Origin: Micromonospora sp. C28SCA-DRY-2
Lineage (GTDB): Bacteria > Actinomycetota > Actinomycetes > Mycobacteriales > Micromonosporaceae
Direction of reading: 5' to 3'
Assembly (NCBI RefSeq): GCF_030519475.1
Contig: NZ_JAUMKD010000002.1
Span: 491,501 to 555,500, forward strand
Length of the DNA stretch: 64,000 nt
The notes beneath the pieces were generated by a model, which did no database searches, was not told the origin of the DNA, and saw nothing but the letters and a program-made list of their open reading frames with translations. Below are positions 27,557 to 63,264 of the stretch, piece after piece (position 1 is the stretch's first letter; each line of letters begins with the position of its first letter). Position numbers and translations under genes: made by a program.

Positions 27557-28178
27557 GCCACTGATCTCCTTGGGCGAGACCGGACCCGCGAACGGCCCGG
27601 CACGGTGGTCCGATGGGCGTCCTGCGCGGACGACCGCCGGCGCCAACGGGATTCCTTCGGGGGGCGCCCGACCCGGACGGGCGGTGGTGGTGGTGCGATG
27701 ACCGGCGACCGCCGGCCCGGGCGGGACGTCGTCCGGCGGACCGGTGCCCTCGACTCCTGCCTGCTGCGCGGTGTGGCTCCCCGAACCGCGTGCCGCCGAT
27801 TCTTGCATGGGAGCGCTTCCATGGCAATGCCTCTATGTCTCCCGCTCGACCGCCCGCCGGGTCCGGCGCCCCGAGCCCCGCCGGGTCGGACAATGGCGGC
27901 GGCCACCCCGGCGATGGTCCGGTTCCGCACTCCCCCGAACCCGGACGATCCCGTCGAGTCACCCCGGCGAGCGCCGGACGGACCCCTAGCGCGCCAGGGG
28001 TCGGGAACCCCGCGACCCCCACCAGTCGGCGGCACATGCGATGAAAGCCGCTTACCACCCCTATAGCCCTCATCCCCGTCAAACTCTTAAACACGAATCT
28101 TTCCTCTCATAGGTCGTGAAACGGTCTAACGTCGGTCCTAGCTCGGATGTGGCCGAGCCGAGGACAACAGGGGATGGA
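27557..28178. other. 622-base intergenic region between divergent genes
   Basis: Contains the CebR-like operator at 27808-27821. Towards the right side there is an AT-richer stretch (about 28041-28140) with a -10-like TAACGT at 28127-28132 for the repeat protein gene. No coding frame here has convincing features. Confidence 0.6.
27808..27821. promoter_or_regulatory. CebR-like operator of the cellulase gene
   Basis: TGGGAGCGCTTCCA matches the published 14-bp CebR/CelR palindrome TGGGAGCGCTCCCA with one change. It sits inside a longer symmetric CATGG...CCATG. CebR is a LacI-type repressor relieved by cellobiose. Confidence 0.8.
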
Positions 28179-29228
28179 GTGACGCAGGTCATGGGTAAGA
28201 AGATGCTCGGAAAGGTCGTCGCGGGCGCCGCCCTCGGCGGTGCCTCGCTGCTGGTGTTCTCGCCGGCGGTCGCGTACGCCGACGGTCACCACGACGACAA
28301 GGACGGCAAGGTCTTCGCCAAGCCGCACGTGGTCAAGCCCGGCGACGAGGTCAAGCTCCTCGAGGTCTGCGAAGAGCCGCAGAAGCACGCGTACGTGTGG
28401 TCCAAGGTCACCGGCAAGGTCAAGCTCAAGCCGGTCGACGGGCGCGAGGACCACCGTGACTGGCGTGGCGGGGAGGAGGACCGTCGCGACGAGCACGGCA
28501 AGGACCACGAGGACAAGGGCAAGGACCACGACAAGGGCAAGGACCACGAGGACAAGGGCAAGGACCACGACAAGGGCAAGGACCACGAGGACAAGGGCAA
28601 GGACCACGACGGCCGCGGTGACGAGACCGGCAAGCCGCAGCCGAACGGCCAGGGCGGCGGCGCCGCGGACTCCGGCCGCGAGGAGGACCGCAAGGACTGG
28701 AAGGGCGACGAGCACGGCCAGGACGCCGAGCACGGCAGCGACTGGAAGGACCGCGAGGAGTCCGGCCGCGACGGCGACAAGAAGGACCACGAGAACAACG
28801 ACCACGGCGACTACGGCGACTACGGCGACGAGTCCGACCGGGGCGACCACGGCTCGGACTGGAAGGGCCACGACGAGAACGGCAAGGACCACGAGGACGG
28901 CAAGGACCACGAGAACGGCTGGTCCGACGAGGAGTCCGGGGACTACGGCAAGGACGAGGACCGCTGGGAGCACAAGCGTGACTTCGTCTACTACGGCGAG
29001 GCCAAGGTGGACCGGCACGCCAAGCCGGGCCGCTACAAGCTCGAGGGCTCCTGCGGCAAGGGCGAGCTGGTCGTCCTGCCGCGTGGCGGGGTCGACGGTG
29101 GTGACGGTGGCGCCGGCGCCGGCACCGACCGCGAGCTGGCCGCCGCGGGCGCGAGCCTGATCGGCGCCTCCGCGCTGGGCGGCATCGTGCTGCTGCGTCG
29201 TCGTCGGACCGATGCGTCCTACGCGTGA
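28179..29228 (+). CDS. Secreted His/Asp/Lys-rich repetitive surface protein
   Basis: A 349-residue protein. A signal peptide (MGKKMLGKVVAGAALGG to VAYA) precedes a short conserved domain (VVKPGDEVKLLEVCEEP). A long hydrophilic region (about residues 90-265) follows, built from GKDHEDKGKDHDK repeats (39-bp DNA units near 28497-28610) and related Asp/Glu/Lys/His/Trp segments. A second conserved piece (DFVYYGEAKVDRHAKPGRYKL, then SCGKGELVVLP) contains the partner cysteine. A membrane helix and RRRR tail end the protein. The sequence before the helix, ELAAAGAS, resembles a weak LAxTG sorting signal. It overlaps the class F sortase gene. Start GTG 28179 (AGGGGA upstream) or ATG 28191. Metal binding is only an inference. 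Confidence 0.85.
   Translation: MTQVMGKKMLGKVVAGAALGGASLLVFSPAVAYADGHHDDKDGKVFAKPHVVKPGDEVKLLEVCEEPQKHAYVWSKVTGKVKLKPVDGREDHRDWRGGEEDRRDEHGKDHEDKGKDHDKGKDHEDKGKDHDKGKDHEDKGKDHDGRGDETGKPQPNGQGGGAADSGREEDRKDWKGDEHGQDAEHGSDWKDREESGRDGDKKDHENNDHGDYGDYGDESDRGDHGSDWKGHDENGKDHEDGKDHENGWSDEESGDYGKDEDRWEHKRDFVYYGEAKVDRHAKPGRYKLEGSCGKGELVVLPRGGVDGGDGGAGAGTDRELAAAGASLIGASALGGIVLLRRRRTDASYA
28497..28610 (+). repeat. In-frame 39-bp tandem repeats
   Basis: About three consecutive copies of a 39-base unit encoding GKDHEDKGKDHDK, within the surface protein gene. Copies are nearly identical at DNA level, so they are recently expanded or homogenised. Confidence 0.8.
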
Positions 29229-29907
29229 CGTGACGGCGACCCGGGCCGGCGGCCGCCACGGGATTCCGTGGCGCGCCGCCGGCGCGGCCGTCGTCGTCCT
29301 GCTCGCCATGGTGGGCGCCGGCCTGGTCGGCGCGTCGCTCAAGGGCACGCCCGCTCCCCGCCCGCCCCAACCCCTGGCCCAGGCGGCGGCCACGCCGAGC
29401 GCCACGCCGTCGTTCGACACGTACGACGAGGCGCCGGCCGCCGCCGGGCTGCCCCGCTCCACCCCCACCACGATCACGATCCCCCGGATCGGGGTCGACG
29501 CGAGCATCATCTCGTTGGGCACCAACCCGGACGGCACCGTCCAGGTCCCGCCGCTGGAGCGGGCCGAGCTGGCCGGCTGGTACCAGCCGGGACCGAGCCC
29601 GGGCGAGGTCGGCAACGCGGTGATCGTGGGGCACGTCGACTCGGCCAAGATCGGGCCGGCGGTCTTCTTCTCGCTCGGCGCCCTGCAACCCGGGGACACC
29701 ATCACCGTCGCCCGCGAGGACGGCCGGCCGGCTACCTTCACCGTCGAGTCGGTCCAGCGGCACCCGAAGGACGCGTTCCCCACCGAGCTGGTCTACGGCC
29801 CCAGCGACAAGCCCAGCCTGCGGGTGGTGACCTGCGGCGGGGTCTTCGACCAGGCCGCCGGCAGCTACCCCGACAACGTGATCGTCCTGGCCACCATGGC
29901 GGAATGA
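29212..29907 (+). CDS. Class F sortase
   Basis: A 231-residue sortase. An N-terminal membrane anchor (about 20-40) and Pro/Ala linker precede the catalytic fold TITIPRIGVDASI, NAVIVGHVD (catalytic His) and LRVVTCGG (catalytic Cys). Sortases transpeptidate surface proteins onto the cell wall; class F is the common actinobacterial type. No arginine occurs after the catalytic Cys (CGGVFDQAAGSYPDNVIV), although sortases normally have one there. The gene overlaps the repeat surface protein gene by 17 bases, pointing to that protein as its substrate. ATG 29212 is chosen; GTG 29230 is possible. Confidence 0.9.
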   Translation: MRPTRDVTATRAGGRHGIPWRAAGAAVVVLLAMVGAGLVGASLKGTPAPRPPQPLAQAAATPSATPSFDTYDEAPAAAGLPRSTPTTITIPRIGVDASIISLGTNPDGTVQVPPLERAELAGWYQPGPSPGEVGNAVIVGHVDSAKIGPAVFFSLGALQPGDTITVAREDGRPATFTVESVQRHPKDAFPTELVYGPSDKPSLRVVTCGGVFDQAAGSYPDNVIVLATMAE

Positions 29908-48910: not shown

Positions 48911-51187
48911 ATGTCGCACGGCGAGGAACTGTTCGCTCTCGGCGGGGACGTGACCACGGAGCCCAGCTTCGAGTCCGCTCTGCGGGGGTACGAGAAACGA
49001 CAGGTCGACCGGTACGTCGCGCGTGCGGAGCACGAGATCGCGACCCTCGCGGCTGAGCGGGAGCAGGCCTACACACAGATCCACAAGCTGGCCGGCCAGG
49101 TCGAGGTGCTCCAGCGGGATCTCGCCCAGGTGCGCAAGCAGGTCGGGGTGGTCGACCGCGCCTCGTTCCGGCACCTCGGCCCCCGGGTCGAACAGATCCT
49201 CACCCTCGCCGAGGAGCAGGCCGAGGCGATCCTGCGGGAGGCCAACGAGGAGATCGAGGCCCGCCGCGCCGCCGCCGAGCACATCATCGAGGAGGCCCGC
49301 GCCGAGGCCGCCAAGGCGCTCAAGGACTTCGAGATCGCGCTGGCCGCGCGCCGGGCCGAGGAGGAGCGGCACACCGCCGCCCGCAAGGCCGAGGCGGACG
49401 CCGCCGTCAAGGCCGCCAAGGCGGAGGCCGAGCGGCTCCGCAAGGCCGCCCAGGAGGCGCTGAACAAGGCCCAGCAGGAGGCCACCCAGCTGCGCGACGC
49501 GGCGAAGGAGATCCACACCCGGGCCCAGCAGGAGGCGACCAAGCTGCGCGAGGCCGCCAAGGAGGCGCACGCCAAGGCCCAGCAGGAGGCGACCGAGCTG
49601 CGCGAGGCCGCCAAGGAGGTGCACGCCAAGGCCCAGCAGGAGGCCCGCCGCCTGGTCGAGCAGGCCACCGAGGCCGGCCGGGCCACCCACGCCAAGGCCC
49701 AGCGCGAGGCCAAGCAGATCATCGACGACGCCAGCACCGCCGGCCGGGCCACCCGGGAGAAGGCCCGCCAGGAGGCGGAGCGGCTGACCACGCAGGCGGC
49801 CGAGTCCGCCCGGCGCAGCCGGGCCGAGACCGAGGCGTACGTGCAGCGGATGCGCAGCGAGACCGAGGCGTACGTGCAGCACGCCCGGGCGCAGACGCAG
49901 CAGGAGCTGGGCGCCTGGCGGGCCGGTGTGGAGAAGGAGGTGAACGGCCGGCGCGAGGCGGCCGACCGGGAGCTGGCCCAGCGGCGGGCCGCCGCCGAGC
50001 AGGAGTTCACCAGCCGCCGCACCGAGCTGGAGAAGCAGTACAAGACCCGCAACGCCGAGCTGGAGAAGCAGCACAAGACGCGGCAGGACGAGCTGGAGTC
50101 GACGTACACCAAGCGACGCACCCAGCTGGAGACCGAGTACCGCACCCGGAAGAACGAGATCGAGCAGGGCGCCGCCGCGATCCGCGAGGCCGCCGAGCGG
50201 GACGCGCTCACCATGCGCCAGCAGGCCGAGGAGGAGGCCGCGACGCTGCTCAGCCGGGCCGAGTCGGAGGCGGCCGAGAAGCGGCGCACGGCCGACGAGT
50301 ACGTGGCGACCTCCCGCCGGCAGTTCGAGGAGTACGCCGCCACCACCCAGCAGCACCTGGCCACCACCCAGCAGCACCTCGCCGCCACCCAGCAGGAGGC
50401 GGCCGCCAGCCGGCAGCAGCTCGCCCAGGTGATGCTGGAGATCGCCCAGGCCCAGCAGCAGCTCGCCGACCTGCGCCAGGAGACCTGGCAGTCCCGGCAG
50501 GAGTCCGACGAGCTCCAGCGGCAGGTGGCCGAGCTGCGGCTGCAACTGGCCACGTCCGGTGGCCGCCCGACGGGCACCGACGGCGCCACCGTGGCCGCGC
50601 CGGCGACCGGCCCGAAGGCCGGGACGGCGAAGCGGGCCGACGCCCCGGCGAAGCCGGCCGGCGCCGGTGGGAAGCCGGGGGCCGACGCCAAGCCGGCGTC
50701 CGGGATCCCGGCGGGCGCCGCGGCGCGACCGGCCACCGCGGCCGAGGCGAGCGCGAAGCCGACCAGCGCGCCGAACCCCAACCAGAAGCAGACAGTGGAC
50801 GCCGGCGGCCCGAAGCAGACGGTGGACGCGGGTCGGAAGCAGACGGTGGACACCGGCGGCGCGAAGCCGACCGGCGCCGCCGCGGCGGCCGTCTCCGGGG
50901 CGAAGCCGGAGGGTAAGCCGGCCGGCGCCGCGCCGGGCGGCAAGCCGGCCGAGGCGGGCCAGGCCGAGGCGCGCCCGGTCGCCGAGCCGGTGACCACGGC
51001 GGACGGCAGCGCCGCCGCGGCCGGTGTGGACGGCGAACCGACGGTGGCCGCGGTGCCCGGTGCCGGCGGTCGGGGGGCCACCCCGACGAAGATCACCAGC
51101 ACCGGCGAGAACGGCAAGCGGCCCACCAAGCCGACCACCGACGAGCGCAGCGCCAAGCCCAGCACGGTCAGCGCCGAGAAGGACTGA
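48911..51187 (+). CDS. Large DivIVA-type coiled-coil protein (Scy-like)
   Basis: A 758-residue protein. The DivIVA-like start is SFESALRGYEKRQVDRYVARA (about residues 20-40). It is followed by a coiled coil to about 545 that contains tandem 18-residue repeats (AQQEATxLREAAKExHAK, about residues 190-250) instead of plain heptads. The last 210 residues are Ala/Pro/Gly/Lys-rich and carry three KQTVDxG repeats. It probably organises polar growth together with the shorter coiled-coil protein upstream. ATG 48911 is preceded by GAGG at 8-9 bases. Separate promoter likely, as a 173-base gap separates the two genes. Confidence 0.85.
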   Translation: MSHGEELFALGGDVTTEPSFESALRGYEKRQVDRYVARAEHEIATLAAEREQAYTQIHKLAGQVEVLQRDLAQVRKQVGVVDRASFRHLGPRVEQILTLAEEQAEAILREANEEIEARRAAAEHIIEEARAEAAKALKDFEIALAARRAEEERHTAARKAEADAAVKAAKAEAERLRKAAQEALNKAQQEATQLRDAAKEIHTRAQQEATKLREAAKEAHAKAQQEATELREAAKEVHAKAQQEARRLVEQATEAGRATHAKAQREAKQIIDDASTAGRATREKARQEAERLTTQAAESARRSRAETEAYVQRMRSETEAYVQHARAQTQQELGAWRAGVEKEVNGRREAADRELAQRRAAAEQEFTSRRTELEKQYKTRNAELEKQHKTRQDELESTYTKRRTQLETEYRTRKNEIEQGAAAIREAAERDALTMRQQAEEEAATLLSRAESEAAEKRRTADEYVATSRRQFEEYAATTQQHLATTQQHLAATQQEAAASRQQLAQVMLEIAQAQQQLADLRQETWQSRQESDELQRQVAELRLQLATSGGRPTGTDGATVAAPATGPKAGTAKRADAPAKPAGAGGKPGADAKPASGIPAGAAARPATAAEASAKPTSAPNPNQKQTVDAGGPKQTVDAGRKQTVDTGGAKPTGAAAAAVSGAKPEGKPAGAAPGGKPAEAGQAEARPVAEPVTTADGSAAAAGVDGEPTVAAVPGAGGRGATPTKITSTGENGKRPTKPTTDERSAKPSTVSAEKD

Positions 51188-62993: not shown

Positions 62994-63264
62994 GTGTAAC
63001 GACCACCGGGCCACCATCATTCCGGGGCCCTCAACCCTCACCGGCGTGTGCCAGTGGGGACCGGTGCGGCGATCGTTCGGGGGGATGCAACGACCACCGG
63101 GCCGCCGTCATTCCGGGGCCACGATCCTCAACCGGCGGGTGCCGGCGGGACCGGTCCTGCGATCGTCAGGGAGATGCAACGACCGGCCGCCCGCCATCAT
63201 TCCGCCAGGCCCGGGGTCTCACGCCGGCAATGCCAGCGCCGGAACCCCTTGCTCGATCGTCCGC
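62994..63264. repeat. Three degenerate copies of an about 90-base repeat
   Basis: Copies begin near 62994, 63085 and 63174 with TGCAACGACC or close variants. They share a middle part reading CATTCCGGGGCC and an end with GCGATCG. Copy 3 is the most diverged. Confidence 0.75.

Follow-up and report, generated by a model that had tools for sequence, protein, structure and literature searches.

The neighboring genes P0001 and P0002, located in the 64,000-nucleotide stretch of Micromonospora DNA analyzed here (hereafter the window), probably form a dedicated sortase-substrate module, in which a class F sortase would anchor P0001 and a disordered acidic loop of P0001 would act as a surface brush. 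The proposal draws on the adjacency of the two genes, a split domain, predicted disorder, a conserved motif, a link between motif type and sortase clade, and a composition that persists under free sequence turnover, all of which were obtained by computation. The two genes are as follows:

28191..29228, + strand, substrate gene P0001 (345 aa), with the ATG at 28191 used as the start
29212..29907, + strand, class F sortase gene P0002 (231 aa)

P0002 scored 206.2 bits against the NCBIfam model of class F sortases (NF033748, cut-off 166) and 81.7 bits against Pfam PF04203 (cut-off 26.6), confirming the class F assignment made in an earlier note on this DNA. The catalytic positions His141, Cys208, and Asn222 were located in the sequence, and a Y..N pattern was present in all Gly-type sortase rows (62/62). 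The residue Asn222 agrees with the replacement of the catalytic Arg by Asn that the cited section of PMC6998099 describes for actinobacterial class F sortases. Comparison of P0002 with the sequences of solved structures gave no match at an E value of 0.001. Judged by profile and catalytic residues, P0002 is a class F sortase with predicted transpeptidase activity. According to the cited section of PMC10924467, Streptomyces usually code for one or more sortases of each of the classes E and F. The genome from which the window was taken encodes five sortases of class F, each with a motif-bearing neighbor of its own, and a single one of class E that exceeds its cut-off.

P0001 had matches in each of the 61 genomes of the genus that were searched, its own among them, and the 60 relatives in the genus yielded 59 loci (L036–L095 minus the paralogue locus L087; G052, whose gene is split over two contigs, was excluded). 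The sortase gene adjoined the substrate gene in 56 of these 59 loci, and the remaining three substrates lay at contig ends, indicating that the two-gene unit claimed earlier is real and conserved, with its members side by side rather than separated in the relatives. The genes overlap by 17 nt if the ATG at 29212 is the sortase start, in agreement with the overlap claimed before, and in 85 of 86 family genes the sortase frame contained an ATG, GTG, or TTG before the substrate gene ended. Position 28179, from which the earlier note had counted, is an in-frame GTG four codons upstream of the ATG at 28191; the frame stands, and the ATG was used as the start in its place. A large downstream gene, presumably encoding an NAD-glutamate dehydrogenase, was seen in 54 of the 59 loci and was convergent in all 54, and an upstream neighbor, which we take to be a GH6 cellulase gene, was seen in 50. 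Because these flanking genes are kept across the genus loci, we infer that the pair has been inherited vertically.

Two further elements were located upstream of the substrate gene:

28095..28133, + strand, hyperconserved promoter-like block GAATCTTTCC...TGAAACGGTCTAACGTC, located by conservation upstream of the gene
28140..28159, + strand, weakly supported candidate 5ʹUTR hairpin with a 7-bp stem, just upstream of the ribosome-binding site

The CTAACGT sequence was found in all 86 family upstream regions, in forms A and B alike, and the promoter-like pattern was the sole match in the whole genome with up to three mismatches. For the hairpin, the 26 distinct UTRs that were typed, out of 86 seen, had 90.1% of their cells paired, compared to 5.5–46.7% when the position was slid. 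Of 500 column shuffles, 7 reached the paired percentage, 66 the covariation score, and 302 the number of double-change pairs. A 5ʹUTR hairpin is thus possible, being favored by the slid controls and given little covariation support by the column shuffles. The Rfam search of 27800–28300 returned no match.

The substrate was predicted to be a secreted protein with a small domain that is interrupted by a charged segment, and the following elements were delimited:

28191..28280, + strand, signal peptide (about residues 1–30, with AYA/D cleavage by rule, read by eye)
28305..28439, + strand, first half of the Ig-like domain (residues 39–83, holding Cys60; AlphaFold2 and hhalign)
28440..28973, + strand, disordered acidic His-containing insert with tandem repeats (about residues 84–261)
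28497..28610, + strand, perfect 39-bp tandem repeat GKDHEDKGKDHDK (2.9 copies, 100% matches)
28980..29081, + strand, second half of the Ig-like domain (residues 264–297, holding Cys288; AlphaFold2)

Residues 5–16, within the signal peptide, were invariant in alignments A1 and A2. The AlphaFold2 model, built from 30 aligned sequences and having a whole-model mean pLDDT of 54.9 and a pTM of 0.37, contained seven strands, four in residues 39–81 (39–44, 53–60, 67–71, and 75–81) and three in residues 265–295 (265–272, 280–286, and 289–295). The ten-residue pLDDT means were 94–97 over residues 41–80 and 83–97 over residues 261–300, and the pLDDT was below 50 over residues 86–138, 140–148, and 152–261 of the insert. 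Structure comparison with VIA-align spanned residues 35–298 as a single Ig-like unit; Z reached 8.1 over 84 residues, a range that may mean a common arrangement only. When the insert columns were removed, the family aligned with 25 GPxTG-type class F partners over 122 columns in hhalign (E 4.7e-15, score 91), and 30 column-shuffled controls of that alignment scored at most 19.2; when the insert was left in, the alignment covered only the C-terminal 80 columns (E 4.1e-8). Two paralogues encoded in the same genome have just a few residues in the loop that bears the insert in P0001. Based on the model, the hhalign result, and these short loops, the charged region is best read as an insertion in a loop of a small domain. 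Comparison supports well that residues 39–83 and 264–297 would form a single beta-sandwich, and the label Ig-like remains tentative because the Z range is ambiguous and Foldseek found no match for the whole P0001 model at E 0.001 or better. A free-standing repeat protein was accordingly rejected on the split-domain model and the hhalign alignment. The earlier description of a secreted protein with charged repeats stood as regards the signal peptide and the repeats, which, rather than making up the whole architecture, sit inside a split folded domain.

After one X-containing protein had been skipped and three had failed to parse, 83 of 87 distinct proteins remained (74 of form A and nine of form B). 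Two Cys residues were present in 82 of them and three in the other one, and Cys60 and Cys288 would presumably form a disulfide. In the nine form B proteins, the Ig-like halves were not found, and the signal peptide, two Cys, charged repeats, and tail were kept. Alignment A2 gave one weak match among the sequences of solved structures, a beta-agarase at E 0.18. Very long versions of the repeat protein were seen at L199 (Salinispora) and L078, with 702 and 615 aa, respectively.

The C terminus of P0001 carries two elements in the order motif, helix, and basic tail, as in LPXTG substrates:

29088..29102, + strand, predicted sorting pentapeptide GVDGG, followed by DGG (residues 300–304; family conservation)
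29139..29207, + strand, membrane helix (residues 317–335) and RRRR tail (residues 336–339)

The C-terminal membrane helix claimed before was thus present, and the RRRR was invariant in alignments A1 and A2. The family tail reads xV[DEKHNA][GA]G[DA]GG in 85 proteins, the window's included, with GDGG in 84 of them; the fourth motif residue was Gly in 82 and Ala in three, and the Thr of the LPXTG pentapeptide was absent. The sets of 85 and 86 include the window; entries that were truncated or contained X were dropped, identical proteins were counted once, and genus loci and named loci overlap in organisms. The LAAAG that the earlier note had taken for a weak sorting-like motif occurred in only three of the 85 proteins, P0001 among them, at the helix edge, and was rejected; the conserved motif GVDGGDGG starts 16 residues before it. 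Against NF058571 (GVDTG_CTERM, cut-off 29), P0001 scored 20.4 bits by hmmscan and 25.2 bits in the genome search, below the cut-off, and the orthologues from G012 and G026 exceeded it with 30 and 29.4 bits, respectively. All 30 members of A2 matched this model at E up to 1. The two GPATG partners from the same genome gave no match and 14.2 bits. Considering that the motif of P0001 occupies the place of GVDTG in NF058571, GVDGG-DGG is, by sequence, a GVDTG sorting tail variant in which Gly, or in rare cases Ala, replaces Thr. A tail of the GlyGly-CTERM or rhombosortase type was rejected, as no such model was among the P0001 matches at E up to 1; GG_III-CTERM gave one weak match among 30 relatives (E 0.19).

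The pairing extended beyond the genus. The family sample gave 69 sortase hits, including a few partial or repeated ones from loci scanned twice; 63 of these were preceded on the same strand by a partner gene whose product ends in a helix and a basic tail. Among the six without a filtered partner, L217, L244, and L252 have one just outside the filter, L229 has a partly readable one, L239 lies at a contig end, and L228 has none in the locus. Class-wide, 77 of 197 genomes had an NF058571 match at E 0.001, 49 of them over the cut-off, compared to none of 14 control genomes. A sortase matching our profile was held by 29 of the 30 best-scoring GVDTG-tail loci, the miss being at a contig end, and by all 20 loci of a second set chosen by the tail alignment A3, three of which were from Micromonospora; in several of the latter set, the sortase was nearer to a second tail-bearing gene. 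The profile is by itself no test of class, because it was built from BLAST hits to P0002 (class F hits). Tails close to A3 (E 1e-12) were present in 40 of 150 family genomes and 10 of 44 genera. The earlier note had suggested a search for the same gene pair in other actinobacteria. Judged by these matches, the window pair is not isolated, but forms a single branch of a sortase-substrate family that spans the class and is covered in part by NCBIfam. Two such tails occurred in all seven genomes of genus g121, and locus L263 had two whole substrate-sortase pairs in tandem, with a charged insert in one substrate and a Pro-rich insert in the other.

To relate the signal to the enzyme, we used a tree of 107 sortases. 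From the genus, it took in every fourth row together with those of form B and of the Ala types; rows with unparsed motifs and L107 (partner tail GVDTG) were left out. The fourth motif residue changed nine times on this tree, compared to a mean of 44.0 upon shuffling, and none of 200 shuffles was as low. The window sortase fell into a group of 33 rows, with 28 Gly and five Ala. The motif type follows the sortase clade in these sequences, a pattern that co-inheritance of neighboring genes is also expected to give. In the 83 pairs outside L036–L095 and the window, the fourth residue was Thr in 56, Ala in 17, Gly in nine, and Ser in one. The shift to Gly or Ala is not unique to the window clade, because either residue recurs in loci of genus g22, presumably Streptomyces. 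The class F partner at L285, from another family (g22), has a charged repeat-like segment (EKDDREKDDR...) that seems to occupy another loop of a similar domain and is perhaps a case of parallel evolution. Adjacency in the genus, the co-duplication of pairs in another genus, and the agreement of signal type with sortase clade support the earlier view of a dedicated surface-display pair at the level of sequence.

On the proposed route, P0001 would be secreted, presumably via Sec, and its C-terminal helix would then retain it in the membrane. The co-encoded class F sortase would cleave it at GVDG/GDGG and join it to a wall precursor, giving covalent anchoring. The displayed part would consist of a small Ig-like domain and, looping out between two of its strands, a segment that is disordered, strongly hydrophilic, and net acidic. 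Judging from its composition, this segment may work as a surface brush by bulk physics (hydration, charge, and reach) and not by specific sequence.

The properties of the insert bear on this last step. The homogenized 39-bp repeats reported earlier were recovered as the array at 28497–28610. Every full-length family gene (86/86) had a tandem array with a TRF score of at least 60, and in all 86 the period of the best array was a multiple of 3, which exceeds what chance would give; the unit varied between species. Elsewhere in the window, tandem repeats with periods of 33, 54, and 108 were seen at 49384–49674, by eye in a gene for a coiled-coil-like protein, and a 91-bp repeat with 2.3 copies at 62998–63204. 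The insert was 125–542 aa long in the 74 form A proteins, with a mean composition of 0.31 D+E, 0.16 K+R, 0.05 His, and 0.20 Gly; the window insert (184 residues) had 0.36 D+E, 0.20 K+R, and 0.09 H. The net charge was acidic in all 75 inserts. Since all family genes have arrays and the units differ from species to species, the repeats appear to turn over while the composition stays. The short elements GGGAAD and WKGDEHGQDAE (28653–28730) were conserved within the otherwise fast-changing insert.

The earlier note had suggested a metal-binding or adhesive function. According to the first possibility, the His/Asp-rich insert would act as a wall-located buffer that binds Zn, Ni, Cu, or Ca. The window insert does contain 17 His and about 66 Asp/Glu among its 184 residues, Asp-His neighbors were mildly enriched across 75 inserts (D.H/H.D 415 versus 339.5 expected; DH/HD 388 versus 343.1), and the cited section of PMC12445094 describes zinc-binding wall proteins with HxD/HxH motifs in Corynebacterium diphtheriae, including ZnuG with a sortase signal. 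However, His-pair motifs were depleted relative to composition shuffles of the same inserts (HxH 1 versus 58, HH 2 versus 59, HxxxH 9 versus 58, and HxxH 23 versus 59), to which repeats with one His per unit contribute. HxD and HxH together numbered 118 versus 229 expected, with six in the window insert and none in 25 of the 75. In addition, the His content fell to 1.9% (three residues) in two orthologues, and relatives of the same sortase clade from other genera had charged, Pro/Ala/Glu-rich, or Pro/Gln/Gly-rich segments at the same insertion place. Because of this depletion, the His-poor orthologues, and the Pro-/Ala-rich related inserts, classical metal chelation is disfavored, and we regard a metal buffer as distinctly improbable. 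On balance, the turnover of the insert, its kept composition, and the His-pair depletion favor a hydrophilic physical spacer over a specific chelator.

An adhesin or matrix binder, in which the Ig-like domain or a mid-insert motif would bind polysaccharide, spore matrix, or a surface protein and the charged segment would be the spacer, seems unlikely. Ig-like folds are common binding modules, although the Z of up to 8.1 is not specific, and GGGAAD and WKGDEHGQDAE recur in the insert, with GGG in 64 of 75 inserts, a hint of something more specific than a brush. Yet the nine form B members keep the charged repeats and tail without the Ig-like halves, and P0001 matched no Pfam family, with two weak single hits among 30 members. 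A shade less likely again is that the sortase serves other substrates and P0001 stays tethered to the membrane or owes its anchoring to the one class E sortase of the genome. P0001 has no canonical LPXTG, and Gly at the scissile position, in place of the Thr of LPXTG signals, counts against the cleavage proposal; the authors of PMC13251363, in the section cited, likewise found no recognized pentapeptide in the proteins beside srtF1 and srtF4 of Actinoplanes missouriensis. These points are set against the adjacency in 56 of 59 loci, the GDGG in 84 of 85 proteins, the co-duplicated pairs, and the five class F sortases of the genome that each lie beside their own motif-bearing neighbor, and anchoring of P0001 by its co-encoded sortase remains our preferred reading.

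More broadly, we tentatively propose, as a generalization that may well be wrong, that the class F sortases of the Micromonosporaceae act largely one-to-one with operon-linked substrates, many of which would share an insertion-tolerant Ig-like domain. One clade would have shifted its signal from x-T/G to x-G/G, its sortase cutting between two glycines, and the domain would serve as a clip presenting at the wall an acidic loop that is closed, disordered, and variable in length, selected on composition and not on sequence. Filamentous actinobacteria commonly have class F sortases, yet the cited sections of PMC13251363 and PMC6998099 assign these enzymes no function and name no confirmed substrate. 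The GxxTG-xGG motif, its Gly/Ala variants, and adjacency provide a candidate substrate for most class F sortases sampled (63/69 hits). If the proposal holds, a sortase cutting between two glycines would widen the range of specificities usable in protein ligation.

Actinoplanes belongs to the same bacterial family as Micromonospora. The closest parallel to the window pair, likened to it by description and not by sequence comparison, is given by srtF1 and srtF4 of A. missouriensis, which adjoin AMIS_11010 and AMIS_36440, both encoding secreted proteins with a C-terminal helix and a basic tail (PMC13251363). In the section cited, the authors call these proteins possible SrtF1/SrtF4 substrates and set them aside for want of a pentapeptide; the GxxTG-xGG motif may explain why a search for known pentapeptides passed over them. 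Deletion of all four class F sortases of this species caused no phenotypic change according to the same section, so any class F function may be subtle or conditional. Apart from this remark, no description of the substrate family was found among the matches listed in a full-text literature search, mostly without subscription journals, and the term GVDTG gave no paper on sortases by title. The Cutibacterium acnes sortase is of class F like P0002, but is said to recognize LPXTG like sortase A (PMC13257024, section cited). SspA of A. missouriensis resembles P0001 in being a sortase-dependent wall protein predicted to be disordered (PMC13293333); unlike P0001 as proposed here, it depends on the class E sortase SrtE and carries LPVTG (PMC13251363), and its whole mature part is predicted to be disordered with no other conserved domain in the cited section of PMC13293333. 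The GVDTG_CTERM proteins of NF058571 differ from P0001 in the Thr of the model name, where P0001 has Gly, as reflected in the score of 20.4 bits against a cut-off of 29, and share with it the same tail layout and the same place of the motif.
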